Positions 58,507 to 63,245 of a DNA stretch of 64,000 bases are shown here, piece after piece. The DNA is from Anaeromyxobacter terrae (lineage in GTDB: Bacteria; Myxococcota; Myxococcia; Myxococcales; Anaeromyxobacteraceae), in NCBI RefSeq assembly GCF_022690685.1, contig NZ_JALCYY010000002.1, forward strand, positions 1-64,000. Direction: 5' to 3'. The notes under the pieces were generated by a model, which saw only the letters and a program-made list of their open reading frames with translations, did not search any database and had not been told where the DNA came from. Every line of letters starts with the position of its first letter. The first letter of the stretch is position 1. Both the position numbers and the translations under genes were made by a program.

Positions 58507-58989
58507 ATGAGACCCGGCCGCCTCGCCTCGATCGCCACCCTCACCGCCCTCCTCTCGACCGCCTGCGTGACGACCTCGACGACCTCCACGACCTGGGGCG
58601 AGGGCTCCGCCCAGGAGTGGGAGCGCGTCGGCTACGTCGCCTCGATCCGCGAGACCGTGGAGCGGCAGCAGGGAAACCCGGGCGCCGGCGCGGTGGCGGG
58701 CGCGATCATCGGCGGCATCCTCGGCAGCGCGATGGGCGGCCACACGCACTACGACCGCTGGGGCTACGCGCACAGCCAGGGGAGCGGCGCCGGCGCGGTC
58801 GCAGGCGCCGTCGGCGGAGCCGTGGTCGGCGCGGCCGCGAGCCAGGGCGGCGCCGAGCGGCGCACGTACGAGGTCTTCGTCCGGTTCGACGACGGCGGGA
58901 CGGAGACGTTCGTCTACGACCAGCCGTTCGACTTCCGCGTCGGCGACGAGGTCCGGCAGACGCCGCGCGGCCTCGAGTGGAGGCGTTAG
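58507..58989 (+). CDS. Glycine-zipper outer-membrane lipoprotein
   Basis: 160 residues. Signal peptide with lipobox STAC (Cys20) and a Ser/Thr linker. Two glycine-zipper segments: GAGAVAGAIIGGILGSAMGG and GAGAVAGAVGGAVVGAAAS, as in SlyB/Rick_17kDa antigen proteins. A C-terminal beta domain (YEVFVRFDDGGTETFVYDQPFDFRVGDEVR) closes it. Sits in the outer membrane and likely stabilises the envelope. Its stop overlaps the convergent DUF438 gene. Confidence 0.9.
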   Translation: MRPGRLASIATLTALLSTACVTTSTTSTTWGEGSAQEWERVGYVASIRETVERQQGNPGAGAVAGAIIGGILGSAMGGHTHYDRWGYAHSQGSGAGAVAGAVGGAVVGAAASQGGAERRTYEVFVRFDDGGTETFVYDQPFDFRVGDEVRQTPRGLEWRR

Positions 58990-60602
58990 CGAGCTCGCGC
59001 GCCGCGCGTGAAGAAGGTCCGCACGACACCCGGGCCATCCGGCTCCGAGTGCGCGAGGCACCCGACGGCGAGCGCACGCTCGACGAGGGGGCCGGGAACG
59101 AACGGCGTCACGAGCTCGAACACGTCGCCCGACGCGAGCACGGCGAGCTCCTGCATGATCTCCTGCACCGGGTGCGCGCCGGCCGCCAGCATGGGCCGTG
59201 CGTCCAGCCGGCGGGAGACCGGCGCGCCCTCGAGCCACGCCGGCCGGAGCTGAGCATCCGCCGCGGGCGCAGCGGCGGCGTGGGCATGCGCCGCCTCCGG
59301 CGCCGGGCCGCGGCCGTCGACCGCATGCGCGGGGCAGGCCTCGACGGGCCTGGCGGGTTCGGCGCCGGGGCGCGCCCCGGCCCAGGACAGGAGGCGCTGC
59401 TCGCCCTGGAGCGCCCGCTTCTCCGTGAGATCCTGCGTCAGCTCGAGGCAGCCCAGGTACGCGCCGGCCTCGTCGCGGAGCGCGCGGTACTCGATGTGGA
59501 CGAACCGTCCGTGGAGCTGGATCCAGAAGGTGGCGCGGTCCTGCGTGCCGGCGCGGAAGCCGGCGAGGATCTCCTCGACCGTCCCGACCGACGCGGGCGG
59601 GTGGCAGAACTGGACCTTGCGACCGATGACGGCGCGGCTGCGCGAGAACACCCGGTCCTTGCCGTGGCTGAACCAGCGGACGCGATCCTCTGCGTCGACG
59701 AAGGTCGCGTCGAGCGGCAGCGCGCCGAGGATCGCCTCGAGCTCGGCGGGGGCGAGGCTCCCAGTGGGCAGCCTCACGCGCGCGCCGGCCGCGGGACCCT
59801 CGTCGATCCCGGCCGACTCCGGGCGCCAGCGCGCCTCGGGCTCGACGAGGCAGTAGCCGATCTCGTCGCTCTGCCTTGCGATCTCCCACCACTCGCGCTC
59901 GTCGAGGACGTCGAGCGACATGGGCAGCAGGATGTTTTCCTCCTTGTCCACCATGTCGCGGATCGCCCGCGCGAGGGGGCGCAGCGCGCCGCCCGCGATC
60001 GCGCGCGCCGCGGCGGGATCTCCGGCGGCCGACGCGAGCGCCGCGTGCGCGCCGCGCAGCAGCGCGCGCGTCTCGTCGTGCTTGCCCCACATGACCTGCG
60101 GCGGCCCGGTGATGCCGTGGCGCTCGAGGAACGGGAAGAGCAGGTGCTCCTTGCGCAGGTAGTGCTTCTCGACGTCGGTGAGCGCGTTCAAGCGCACGCG
60201 CGCCTGCAGGAGGTGCACGCCCGCGGCGCCCTCGGTCGCGACCGTCGCGAGCGCGTCGGCGGCGTGCTCGAGCGCGTGGACCTGCTTCGCGAGCGCCGCG
60301 TTCTCCTCGGAGAAGACGCGCGCGGGGTGGCCGGCCGGCGGCGTGCGCGCGCCGGAGAGATCGATGCCGCCCTGCAGCGCCGCCGAGTGGAGGTGGCAGA
60401 GCCGCGTCACCTCCTCGGGCCGGAGTCCCTCGGCGATGAGCTCCTGCTCCACCTCCACCACGAGCCCGTACGGCACCTGGCCGAGCAGCCGCTGGAGCTG
60501 CCGCTGCACCGCGTCCGGCGCCGCGCCGTCGTGAAGCTGCAGGATGAGGTGCTTCAGGAGGGCCTTCCGAGGGGGGGCGCCGGTTTCGATGAGCTCGCTC
60601 AT
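58986..60602 (-). CDS. DUF438 / hemerythrin / PAS multidomain protein
   Basis: 538 residues from the ATG at 60602. Residues 1-90 are DUF438-like (RKALLKHLILQLHDGAAPDAVQRQLQRLLGQVPYGLVVEVEQELIAEGL). A hemerythrin domain follows (LTDVEKHYLRKEHLLFPFLERHGI, WGKHDETRALL, IRDMVDKEENILLPMSLDVL). A PAS domain comes next (ILGALPLDATFVDAEDRVRWFSHGKDRVFSRSRAVIGRKVQFCHPPASVGTVEEI). The C-terminal part, after an Ala/His-rich linker (about residue 430), is DUF2249-like (LDARPM...HPVQEIMQELAVLASGDVFELVTPF). The layout suggests an O2, NO or redox responder. It diverges from the E2-like gene. Confidence 0.9.
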   Translation of the reverse strand: MSELIETGAPPRKALLKHLILQLHDGAAPDAVQRQLQRLLGQVPYGLVVEVEQELIAEGLRPEEVTRLCHLHSAALQGGIDLSGARTPPAGHPARVFSEENAALAKQVHALEHAADALATVATEGAAGVHLLQARVRLNALTDVEKHYLRKEHLLFPFLERHGITGPPQVMWGKHDETRALLRGAHAALASAAGDPAAARAIAGGALRPLARAIRDMVDKEENILLPMSLDVLDEREWWEIARQSDEIGYCLVEPEARWRPESAGIDEGPAAGARVRLPTGSLAPAELEAILGALPLDATFVDAEDRVRWFSHGKDRVFSRSRAVIGRKVQFCHPPASVGTVEEILAGFRAGTQDRATFWIQLHGRFVHIEYRALRDEAGAYLGCLELTQDLTEKRALQGEQRLLSWAGARPGAEPARPVEACPAHAVDGRGPAPEAAHAHAAAAPAADAQLRPAWLEGAPVSRRLDARPMLAAGAHPVQEIMQELAVLASGDVFELVTPFVPGPLVERALAVGCLAHSEPDGPGVVRTFFTRGARAR

Positions 60603-60814: not shown

Positions 60815-61204
60815 ATGAAGCGGCTGTTCGGCGGCGACTGGTTGGCGGGTCCGGTCCATGACGCGCTGCGCGACCGCGCGATGGTCGAGCAGAGCCTCCC
60901 CGCCGCGACGCGCGCCGTGGTGGTGGACGGCGTCCGCGGCTGGCTCTTCCCGGTGACGACCACGGCGGGCGACCTCTTCCAGCTCTTCCTCTGGTTCGAC
61001 GGTGCCGTCTACCAGGTCACGGTCGCGAGCCCCGACGTCTCGGGCCACGACCCGCACGCCTGCCACCTGTTCCCGCACGGCCGGATCTGCCTGTCCGCGG
61101 ATCCGGCGGGCGGCATGCCCACGCTCCAGGCCGCCTACGCGAAGAGCGTGCTGTGGGCGAACGGCTTCAGCGAGTTCCAGCGCACGGGAGCGTTCCCGTT
61201 CTGA
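60815..61204 (+). CDS. Prokaryotic E2-like (ubiquitin-conjugating fold) protein
   Basis: 129 residues. The C-terminal half has the E2 active-site architecture: HACHLFPHGRICLSADPAGG, where HxFPHGRICLS stands in the place of the eukaryotic HPN...GxICLD motif, with Cys92 as probable catalytic residue. The following helices (LQAAYAKSVLWANGFSEFQRTGAF) fit the end of the fold. A beta-meander core precedes it (GDLFQLFLWFDGAVYQVTVASP). ATG at 60815 has GGGAGCGGGGGG upstream; a GTG at 60797 is also in frame. First in a three-gene set with a 63-residue protein and a JAB-E1 fusion, so it most likely receives an activated small protein. Confidence 0.82.
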   Translation: MKRLFGGDWLAGPVHDALRDRAMVEQSLPAATRAVVVDGVRGWLFPVTTTAGDLFQLFLWFDGAVYQVTVASPDVSGHDPHACHLFPHGRICLSADPAGGMPTLQAAYAKSVLWANGFSEFQRTGAFPF

Positions 61205-61221
61205 ACCCCGGAGGAGAAGCC

Positions 61222-61413
61222 ATGTCCGATGCCACCGTCGCAGATCTCCGTGAGCTGTTCCTCGACGATCGGCGCACCGAGGACGCACCGCCCCGAGAGC
61301 GGCGCCGCCGCGTGTTCGTCGATCCGGCGGGGCGCATCGTGATCGGCGACCGCCAGCCGCGCGGGGACGAGGGCCAGTCGCTCTCCGAGATCCACCCGGC
61401 CGTCTTCGCCTGA
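61222..61413 (+). CDS. 63-residue protein between E2-like and JAB-E1 genes; modifier candidate
   Basis: Small protein with GAGGAGAAGC before the ATG. It has an N-terminal helix (ATVADLRELFLDD), a very charged linker (RRTEDAPPRERRRR), a beta hairpin (VFVDPAGRIVIGD), and ends SEIHPAVFA. It is somewhat shorter than ubiquitin and lacks a Gly-Gly end. By position it may be the ubiquitin-like modifier, an adaptor, or a target, but no family is recognised. Ends 5 bases before the next GTG, so it is translationally coupled. Confidence 0.65.
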   Translation: MSDATVADLRELFLDDRRTEDAPPRERRRRVFVDPAGRIVIGDRQPRGDEGQSLSEIHPAVFA

Positions 61414-61418
61414 CGCCC

Positions 61419-63245
61419 GTGCGCATCCTCGATGCGGTGCTCCGCGCCCTCGAGGAGGAGATCGCGGCGCATCCGCCGGAGCGCGGCGGCGCGCTCGTCG
61501 GCCCGCGCGGCGTACCCCTCGTCACGCAGCTCGTCCCCGATCCGGAGGGGGCGGCCACCGCGGCGAGCTACCGCCCCTCGCGCGCGCTCGACGCGCGCGT
61601 CAAGGCGCTCGAGCGCCAGGACGGGCTCGAGCTGAAGGGCATCGTCCACTCCCACCCTCCTCTCCTCGACGCGCCGTCCGCGCAGGACGTAGCGGAGCTC
61701 GCGGAGGGCCTGCGCCTCAACGGCCACCTCTCGACCTACCTCGCGCCCATCGTCACGCGCTGCGAGCCCGGCGATCGCGTCGCGCCGCACGCGCTCGCGC
61801 TCGCGGCGGGAAAGGTGTCGTTCTTCGGCGCCTGGCGCGCGGGCGAGGGCCACGCGGCCGTTCGGCCCATGCGAGTGGCCGTGGTGCCGCTCCTGCGCGA
61901 CGCGCAGCGGCTCGCGCGCGCGCTCGGCGGCGAGGTCGCGGGCCTCCCCGTCGTGGACGTCGCGGAGGCGGGAGACGCCGCCCTCCCTGCGGCCCGGGTG
62001 ATCGCGAGCGGGCTCGAGCTCCTCGTGGTCGTGGGGGACGGCTACCCGGCGCTGCCGCCCCTCGTGCTGGCCACGCCCGCGGGCGGAGAGACCGAGCAGC
62101 TCGAGCTCGCGTGGCCGCTCGGCGTCGCGGAGGAGGACCGGCTCGCGGCGGCGGTGCGCGCCGTCGTCATCCCGCCGGGCCCCTACCGCGGCGCCTTCGG
62201 GCCGCGCGGCGGACCGGCGCTCACCGCCGACCGGGAGCGGGCGCGGCTCGCCGGATGGGGACGGCTCCTCGCGGGCGGCGATCCCACGGCCGAGGCGGAG
62301 CGGCTCCGGGGGGCGCTCTTCGCGCGGAGCGCCGGGCTCGTCTCGGACTCGCTGCGCCAGCGGACGGTGCTCGTCGCCGGGTGCGGGTCGGTCGGGTCGT
62401 ACCTCGCCGAGGAGCTCGCGCGGAGCGGTGTGGGCGCGCTCGCGCTCGTGGATCCCGAGCCGGTCGAGGGGGAGAACCTCTCGCGCAGCGGGTACGAGAT
62501 CGGGGATCTCGGACGCCCCAAGGTCGAGGCGCTCGCGCGGCGCGTCCTCGCCGTCCAGCCCGCGATCCGCCTCGCGCTCCACCCGAGCACGGTCGATGCG
62601 CTCGGGTCCCCCGCGCTCGACGCGCTCGTCCGGGCGGCCGACCTCGTCCTCGCCGCCACCGACGATCCCGCCGCGCAGCGCCTCCTCGACCGGTTCGCCT
62701 ACGCGCGCGCCCGGCCGGCGCTCTTCGTGGGCCTGTACGCGGGCGCGCAGGGCGGCGAGGTGGTGATGACGGTCCCGGGCAGGACGCCCTGCTACCTCTG
62801 CGCGACGCGCACGCGCGGCGCCCTCGCGAGGGAGAGCGGCGGCGCGCGCGAGGTCGACTACGGCACGGCGCGGCTCCGCGGCGAGCTCGCGATCGGGGCG
62901 GACGTGCACCACGTGGCGAGCGCGGCGGCGAAGCTGGGGCTCTCGCTGCTCCTCGCGGGGAGCGGCGCGCCGCTCGCGGCGCTGGCCGAGAGCGCGCTCG
63001 CCGACGGGACGCCGTACCTCACCACCTCCACCGTGCCCGGCTACTGGTTCTATCCGCAGGTGTTCGGGGACACGCCGGGGCAGCACGCCTACCAGAGCGT
63101 CTGGCTCACGCCCGCGTCGCGGGCGGAGTGCCCGGTGTGCGGCGATCCCTCCTACCGCGTGGACCCGTTCGAGGTGCCGCTGCGCGCCCCGCGCGCGTCG
63201 GCCTTCGCGGACGTGCTGCGCGAGGGCGACCGGAACGGCGACTGA
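61419..63245 (+). CDS. JAB/JAMM peptidase fused to E1-like (ThiF) adenylation domain
   Basis: 608 residues from a GTG. JAB domain (about 1-140) has the full JAMM set: Glu21 (PPERGGALVG), His77 and His79 (IVHSHP), Ser87 and Asp90, matching HxHx7SxxD. A segment with YPALPP (about 200-250) follows. The E1 domain (about 300-600) has the nucleotide loop GCGSVG (321-326), Asp345, Asn353, Arg356, Lys368, and the Asp pair in ATDD (415-416). Two CxxC pairs (458/461 and 571/574) form a probable zinc site. No other Cys is in the crossover region. It is probably both activator and de-conjugating or processing peptidase for the modifier used by the E2-like protein. Confidence 0.88.
   Translation: MRILDAVLRALEEEIAAHPPERGGALVGPRGVPLVTQLVPDPEGAATAASYRPSRALDARVKALERQDGLELKGIVHSHPPLLDAPSAQDVAELAEGLRLNGHLSTYLAPIVTRCEPGDRVAPHALALAAGKVSFFGAWRAGEGHAAVRPMRVAVVPLLRDAQRLARALGGEVAGLPVVDVAEAGDAALPAARVIASGLELLVVVGDGYPALPPLVLATPAGGETEQLELAWPLGVAEEDRLAAAVRAVVIPPGPYRGAFGPRGGPALTADRERARLAGWGRLLAGGDPTAEAERLRGALFARSAGLVSDSLRQRTVLVAGCGSVGSYLAEELARSGVGALALVDPEPVEGENLSRSGYEIGDLGRPKVEALARRVLAVQPAIRLALHPSTVDALGSPALDALVRAADLVLAATDDPAAQRLLDRFAYARARPALFVGLYAGAQGGEVVMTVPGRTPCYLCATRTRGALARESGGAREVDYGTARLRGELAIGADVHHVASAAAKLGLSLLLAGSGAPLAALAESALADGTPYLTTSTVPGYWFYPQVFGDTPGQHAYQSVWLTPASRAECPVCGDPSYRVDPFEVPLRAPRASAFADVLREGDRNGD

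Follow-up and report, generated by a model that had tools for sequence, protein, structure and literature searches.

Nearly all ubiquitin-type pathways studied so far attach a tag of the beta-grasp fold; in bacteria, the well-studied examples act in phage defence. According to Iyer et al. (2006, PMC1779556), E1 proteins typically carry a JAB joined to one of their ends; in the tabulated part of their classification, type 6e comprises a polyubiquitin-like protein (polyUbl), an inactive E2/RWD protein, a JAB-E1 fusion and a metal-binding protein, and among the table rows listed A. dehalogenans is placed under type 4b (PMC1779556). In CBASS, Cap2 conjugates cGAS, a protein without the beta-grasp fold, via a C-terminal Gly or Ala (PMC10097602), and in the Bil system BilC matures BilA, exposing the BilA C-terminus (review PMC11354881). 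Here we describe a three-gene cassette located in a 64,000-nucleotide stretch of DNA (the window), which belongs to an Anaeromyxobacter genome: synteny is shared with A. soli, and the JAB-E1 protein is 84% identical to that of A. soli.

Gene organisation and distribution of the cassette

The three ORFs that the preliminary description had placed side by side, for an E2-like protein, a 63-residue protein and a JAMM-E1 fusion, are all present, co-directional on the + strand, and the intergenic gaps of 17 and 5 bases make the arrangement operon-like. The first gene (60815-61204; ATG 60815, stop 61204), called from the ORF and an alignment of orthologues, encodes the E2-like protein P0001 of 129 aa. 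The second (61222-61413; ATG 61222, stop 61413) encodes the 63-residue P0003, our candidate modifier, and is preceded in the sequence by a Shine-Dalgarno-like GGAGGAG at 61210-61216. The third (61419-63245; GTG 61419, stop 63245) encodes the 608-aa fusion P0002, identified from Pfam and PDB matches and from alignment. Divergent from the trio, on the - strand at 58989-60602, lies a gene for a protein with DUF438, hemerythrin, PAS_10 and DUF2249-like domains.

Of the genomes searched, ten yielded the E1 gene, namely all eight Anaeromyxobacter genomes of at least 99% completeness and two of the sister genus; the family's remaining genera and one 66%-complete genome gave none. The trio is complete in each of the ten, with both small partners adjoining the E1 gene, so that the co-occurrence check proposed at the outset gave no case of a JAB-E1 gene lacking either of them. 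In one draft genome the trio locus is broken across contigs. In the sister-genus genome G011 a frameshift breaks the E2-like gene in two (L035 8742-9133), either a sequencing error or decay.

Nine loci could be compared together with their flanks. These represent at least six different neighbourhoods, to which the trio alone is common: no fourth conserved gene was seen across the nine, and there was no shared Ubl gene, DUF6527, sulfur, transporter or tailoring gene. As no fourth gene is shared across at least six contexts, the unit of the cassette is exactly three genes. The preliminary description had taken the oxygen/NO-sensor-like neighbour as a hint of stress control; this loses its footing, since the hemerythrin-PAS gene, along with an FMN reductase gene, flanks the trio in only three of the nine loci, relatives of the two being located elsewhere or missing in the others. 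Its remark that no CD-NTase or effector is in view holds for the surroundings of the trio, where we recognised neither of these nor a known immune or defence regulator.

Outside the family, a search of 195 genomes of the phylum, a tblastn search of plasmids and a scan of viral contigs returned only E1-domain or chance matches; a single-protein scan of genome contigs detects close relatives only, distant cassettes in other phyla being beyond its reach. A further Myxococcota locus (G025; L039 8201-10308, - strand) carries an E2-like gene that stands alone, together with an E1 sharing about 30% identity with that of the window, and is akin to a plasmid locus (L066) with JAB, E2-like and E1 genes. 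Apart from its trio, genome G011 also has a Prok-E2_E (Bub-type) gene (L085, G011:C2:123501-123857) with an E1 match nearby. On a Spirosoma plasmid (L064 1970-3788) a YegP-like gene stands beside an E1-like gene; YegP has been reported to adjoin capK/capS (PMC13373217).

The fusion protein and its two small partners

The reading of P0002 as a complete JAMM peptidase joined to an E1 domain is borne out by Pfam, which identifies residues 10-103 (61446-61727) as Prok-JAB (E 1.6e-11) and residues 310-511 (62346-62951) as ThiF (E 1.6e-32). The JAMM motif (E21, H77-S-H79, S87, D90) follows the JAMM/JAB peptidase pattern E...HxHx(7)Sx(2)D in full and is invariant across nine orthologues. The E1 part shows the features of the E1/ThiF adenylation superfamily: a glycine motif at the nucleotide site (GSVGS), D345, and the MoeB-type residues R303, R356, K368 and D415, which in an alignment with MoeB are invariant in the nine orthologues. 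The same is true of two CxxC pairs (458/461 and 571/574), the second of which (63129-63140) belongs, by alignment, to the presumed E1 zinc site. Outside these pairs, no cysteine of P0002 is conserved in the nine-orthologue alignment, nor does the E1 part hold a conserved catalytic Cys of the ThiF or Cap2 type. The top solved relatives in the PDB are MoeB, ThiF, UBA5, MccB and Cap2, with Citrobacter BubCD lower down. In a tree of E1 domains the cassette family forms its own clade (support 98/98), placed towards Bub, Cap2 and the other E2-linked E1s and away from the MoeB-like ones, in a tree with a weak backbone. Between the two domains lies a middle region (residues 132-300, 61812-62318) with an invariant Y209-P210-x2-P213-P214 and no conserved Cys. 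This YPxxPP motif recalls E2/RWD domains; such an identity was considered for the region, yet searches with hhalign and in PDB and Pfam gave it no support.

P0001 carries the motif A82-C83-H84-x5-R90-[IL]-C92, of which C83, H84 and C92 are invariant across orthologues. C92 (codon at 61088-61090) is the ICLS cysteine that had been named as the active-site residue; its presence and invariance agree with that proposal, and we regard it as the candidate catalytic cysteine. A profile of eight P0001 orthologues was compared by hhalign with a set of twelve Prok-E2_B domains (ten from Myxococcota and two from Cap2-type proteins) and gave a score of 29.2 (P 3e-4), with a probability of only 39%. The alignment superposes H-x7-C of P0001 on the catalytic cysteine motif, Cys92 falling on the catalytic Cys. 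By comparison, 300 column shuffles reached at most 24.1, the reversed profile 15.1 and the cassette's other domains 10.5-12.0. No profile similarity was seen to the Bub-type Prok-E2_E, and neither P0001 nor P0003 has a match in Pfam, NCBIfam, PADLOC or PHROGs; the Prok-E2_A search gave no match in anything searched and is hence uninformative. An AF2 model of P0001 from a three-sequence alignment (pLDDT 45) has the element order H-EEEE-E-E-H, i.e., a helix, four strands, two short strands and a helix, which suits a UBC fold at the low confidence of the model. With this model, Foldseek found no match under E 0.2. The YPxxPP-type motif of E2s is absent from P0001, the one in the cassette being that of the P0002 middle region. 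P0001 is thus probably an E2-like protein, with a putative UBC fold.

The P0003 ORF is a real gene. Compared over 63 codons, the window and A. soli show 2 differences at first, 2 at second and 18 at third codon positions, a pattern of purifying selection, and the ORF adjoins every JAB-E1 gene. Charged residues are abundant in the protein and hydrophobic ones scarce. Its AF2 model (pLDDT 67, pTM 0.27) consists of a helix (3-20), a hairpin (30-42) and C-terminal helices (54-62), and no beta-grasp or Ubl match was found for it. A hairpin segment, VDPxGRIVIGD, resembles part of S-adenosylmethionine synthase, probably a local chance similarity. Conservation is highest over the last ten residues, LSEIHPAVFA (61381-61410), six of which are invariant; it exceeds that of every other among the 54 ten-residue windows (permutation p 0.0004). 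The C-terminal consensus is ...SxVHx[AG]VFA, ending in alanine, with no C-terminal glycine. Five of nine orthologues end precisely at VFA, and four extend 2-4 residues beyond it (AP, APLR, APRS or AGQG). A conserved free C-terminus of this kind, next to an E1 and a protease, would be expected of a tag.

A proposed conjugation pathway and its alternatives

Judged from the sequences, there is about an even chance that the trio is a clade-specific, self-contained ubiquitin-like conjugation pathway with P0003 as its tag. What the sequences show directly is the gene structure, the conservation of exactly three genes, the invariant JAMM, adenylation and E2-Cys residues, the conservation peak at the P0003 C-terminus and an E1 with no conserved cysteine beyond the two CxxC pairs; from these we infer all catalytic steps, among them a hand-over of P0003 from its adenylate directly to the cysteine of the E2. 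In this scheme the C-terminal alanine of P0003 would be adenylated by the E1 half of P0002; activated P0003 would pass to the E2-like P0001, probably at Cys92, and P0001 would place it onto an amine of target proteins. The JAMM half of P0002 would take the conjugates off again and, where P0003 has a short tail past ...VFA, may also mature the precursor. Direct transfer is proposed because the E1 of P0002 has no obvious ThiF- or Cap2-type thioester Cys.

Several observations speak against a conjugation pathway. P0003 has no C-terminal glycine and is non-Ubl by its model (pLDDT 67, pTM 0.27), and five of its nine orthologues need no maturation. The E2 fold of P0001 is tentative, with a low-confidence AF2 model (pLDDT 45), no Foldseek match under E 0.2 and an hhalign probability of only 39%, the YPxxPP motif sits in P0002 instead, and the E1 has no ThiF/Cap2-type Cys. 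The fuller statement, of an entire E1-E2-JAMM pathway with a dedicated, tiny, non-beta-grasp tag that ends in Ala, a non-defence role and possibly a direct hand-over of the adenylated tag to the cysteine of the E2, is more tentative, and we would put it somewhat short of an even chance.

The charge of P0003, its few hydrophobic residues and the lack of a predicted beta-grasp fold would also suit a docking role between E1 and E2, as an adaptor or regulator, with a MoaD/ThiS-like beta-grasp protein encoded elsewhere in the genome as the real tag. Such a role is unlikely, given that an adaptor does not require the conservation peak at the extreme C-terminus and that no Ubl gene accompanies the cassette in any context.

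As to what conjugation would serve, the bacterial E1-E2-JAMM sets studied in most depth act in defence, and PADLOC E1-E2 profiles match the E1 part of P0002. An anti-phage operon like Cap2/Cap3, Bil or possibly Bub is nonetheless quite improbable: unlike patchy defence genes, the cassette is present in all eight near-complete Anaeromyxobacter genomes and in two of the sister genus, and its neighbours are ordinary and changing; among them we recognised neither a CD-NTase nor an effector nor a known regulator of immunity. Given its universal presence in the genus and neighbours of this kind, we favour a housekeeping or stress role over phage defence, and the suggestion in the preliminary description that the role may be non-defence is probably right.

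We see little chance for a peptide-maturation or natural-product pathway, where the E1 would activate the P0003 C-terminus as MccB does the microcin C7 peptide and the product would be a modified peptide. Neither a JAMM peptidase nor an E2-like protein is necessary for such chemistry, and the trio has no conserved transporter or tailoring gene next to it, although MccB is among the top PDB matches of the E1 and P0003 is small, weakly folded and precursor-like. Least probable of all is a sulfur-carrier pathway, with a P0003 thiocarboxylate feeding a cofactor or metabolite, for which types 4a-4e of Iyer et al., combining JAMM, E1 and a small carrier, offer a parallel (PMC1779556), but several of their E1s are joined to rhodanese and work with a ThiS/MoaD-like carrier, whereas the cassette has no rhodanese domain, shares no sulfur gene and includes an E2-like protein.

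Comparison with known systems

The fusion of JAB to E1 is not in itself new. The preliminary description held that known systems usually keep JAB separate, a view at odds with Iyer et al. (2006, PMC1779556), who call the fusion typical; it is standard in Iyer type 6e/Bub operons, of which the plasmid loci L060 and L063 are examples, L060 having the JAB-E1 fusion. With type 6e/Bub the cassette shares an N-terminal JAMM and a C-terminal E1 in one polypeptide, a separate small E2-type gene and a compact operon. It differs in its E2-like protein, which has an invariant Cys and matches Prok-E2_B where Bub has a Prok-E2_E/RWD-like protein without Cys. It also has no (poly)Ubl and no DUF6527 or metal-binding protein, has an additional 170 residues separating JAB from E1, and encodes a small partner of 63 residues that is non-Ubl (helix, hairpin, helix by model). 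Taken together, a Cys-bearing, E2_B-like protein, a JAB-(170-residue region)-E1 fusion and a non-Ubl partner fit none of types 6a-6e as tabulated, in a comparison that covers Iyer et al. (2006), later citing papers and the plasmid loci, newer Bub and E1-superfamily literature lying outside it.

Type II CBASS Cap2/Cap3 and the 6A-MBL systems resemble the cassette in having an E1, a JAMM and an active-Cys E2 of the Prok-E2_B kind, to which the E2-like P0001 probably corresponds, and the non-beta-grasp CBASS tag ending in Gly or Ala is a precedent for the Ala-ending P0003. In type II CBASS, however, Cap2 is an E2-E1 fusion accompanied by a CD-NTase and an effector, whereas the cassette has JAB-E1, a separate E2-like gene and neither of these partners. 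The JAMM of Cap2/Cap3 and 6A-MBL is separate or C-terminal, while that of the cassette is N-terminal on the E1. 6A-MBL further combines an E2-E1-JAB triple protein with an MBL, which the cassette does not have, and the 6A-MBL profile NF058523 scored 82.9 bits, below its cut-off of 320. The Bil system (BilABCD) has E2, E1, JAMM and a modifier that is matured C-terminally by the JAMM, much as is proposed for the cassette, yet its tag BilA is an ISG15-like two-Ubl protein, its JAMM is separate and its E1 has its own catalytic Cys domain (PMC11354881); in the cassette the JAMM is fused to the E1 and a two-Ubl protein is absent. MccB and PaaA systems share with the cassette an E1-like adenylation domain, which in them activates a non-Ubl substrate, as is proposed for P0002, but they have no JAMM or E2 partner. 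If the conjugation pathway is real, E1-E2-JAMM chemistry would have been adopted for another tag, probably for ordinary physiology; relative to known systems the cassette, free of a polyubiquitin-like protein and of DUF6527, is set apart by its Cys-bearing E2-like protein and by a partner that is non-beta-grasp by model.
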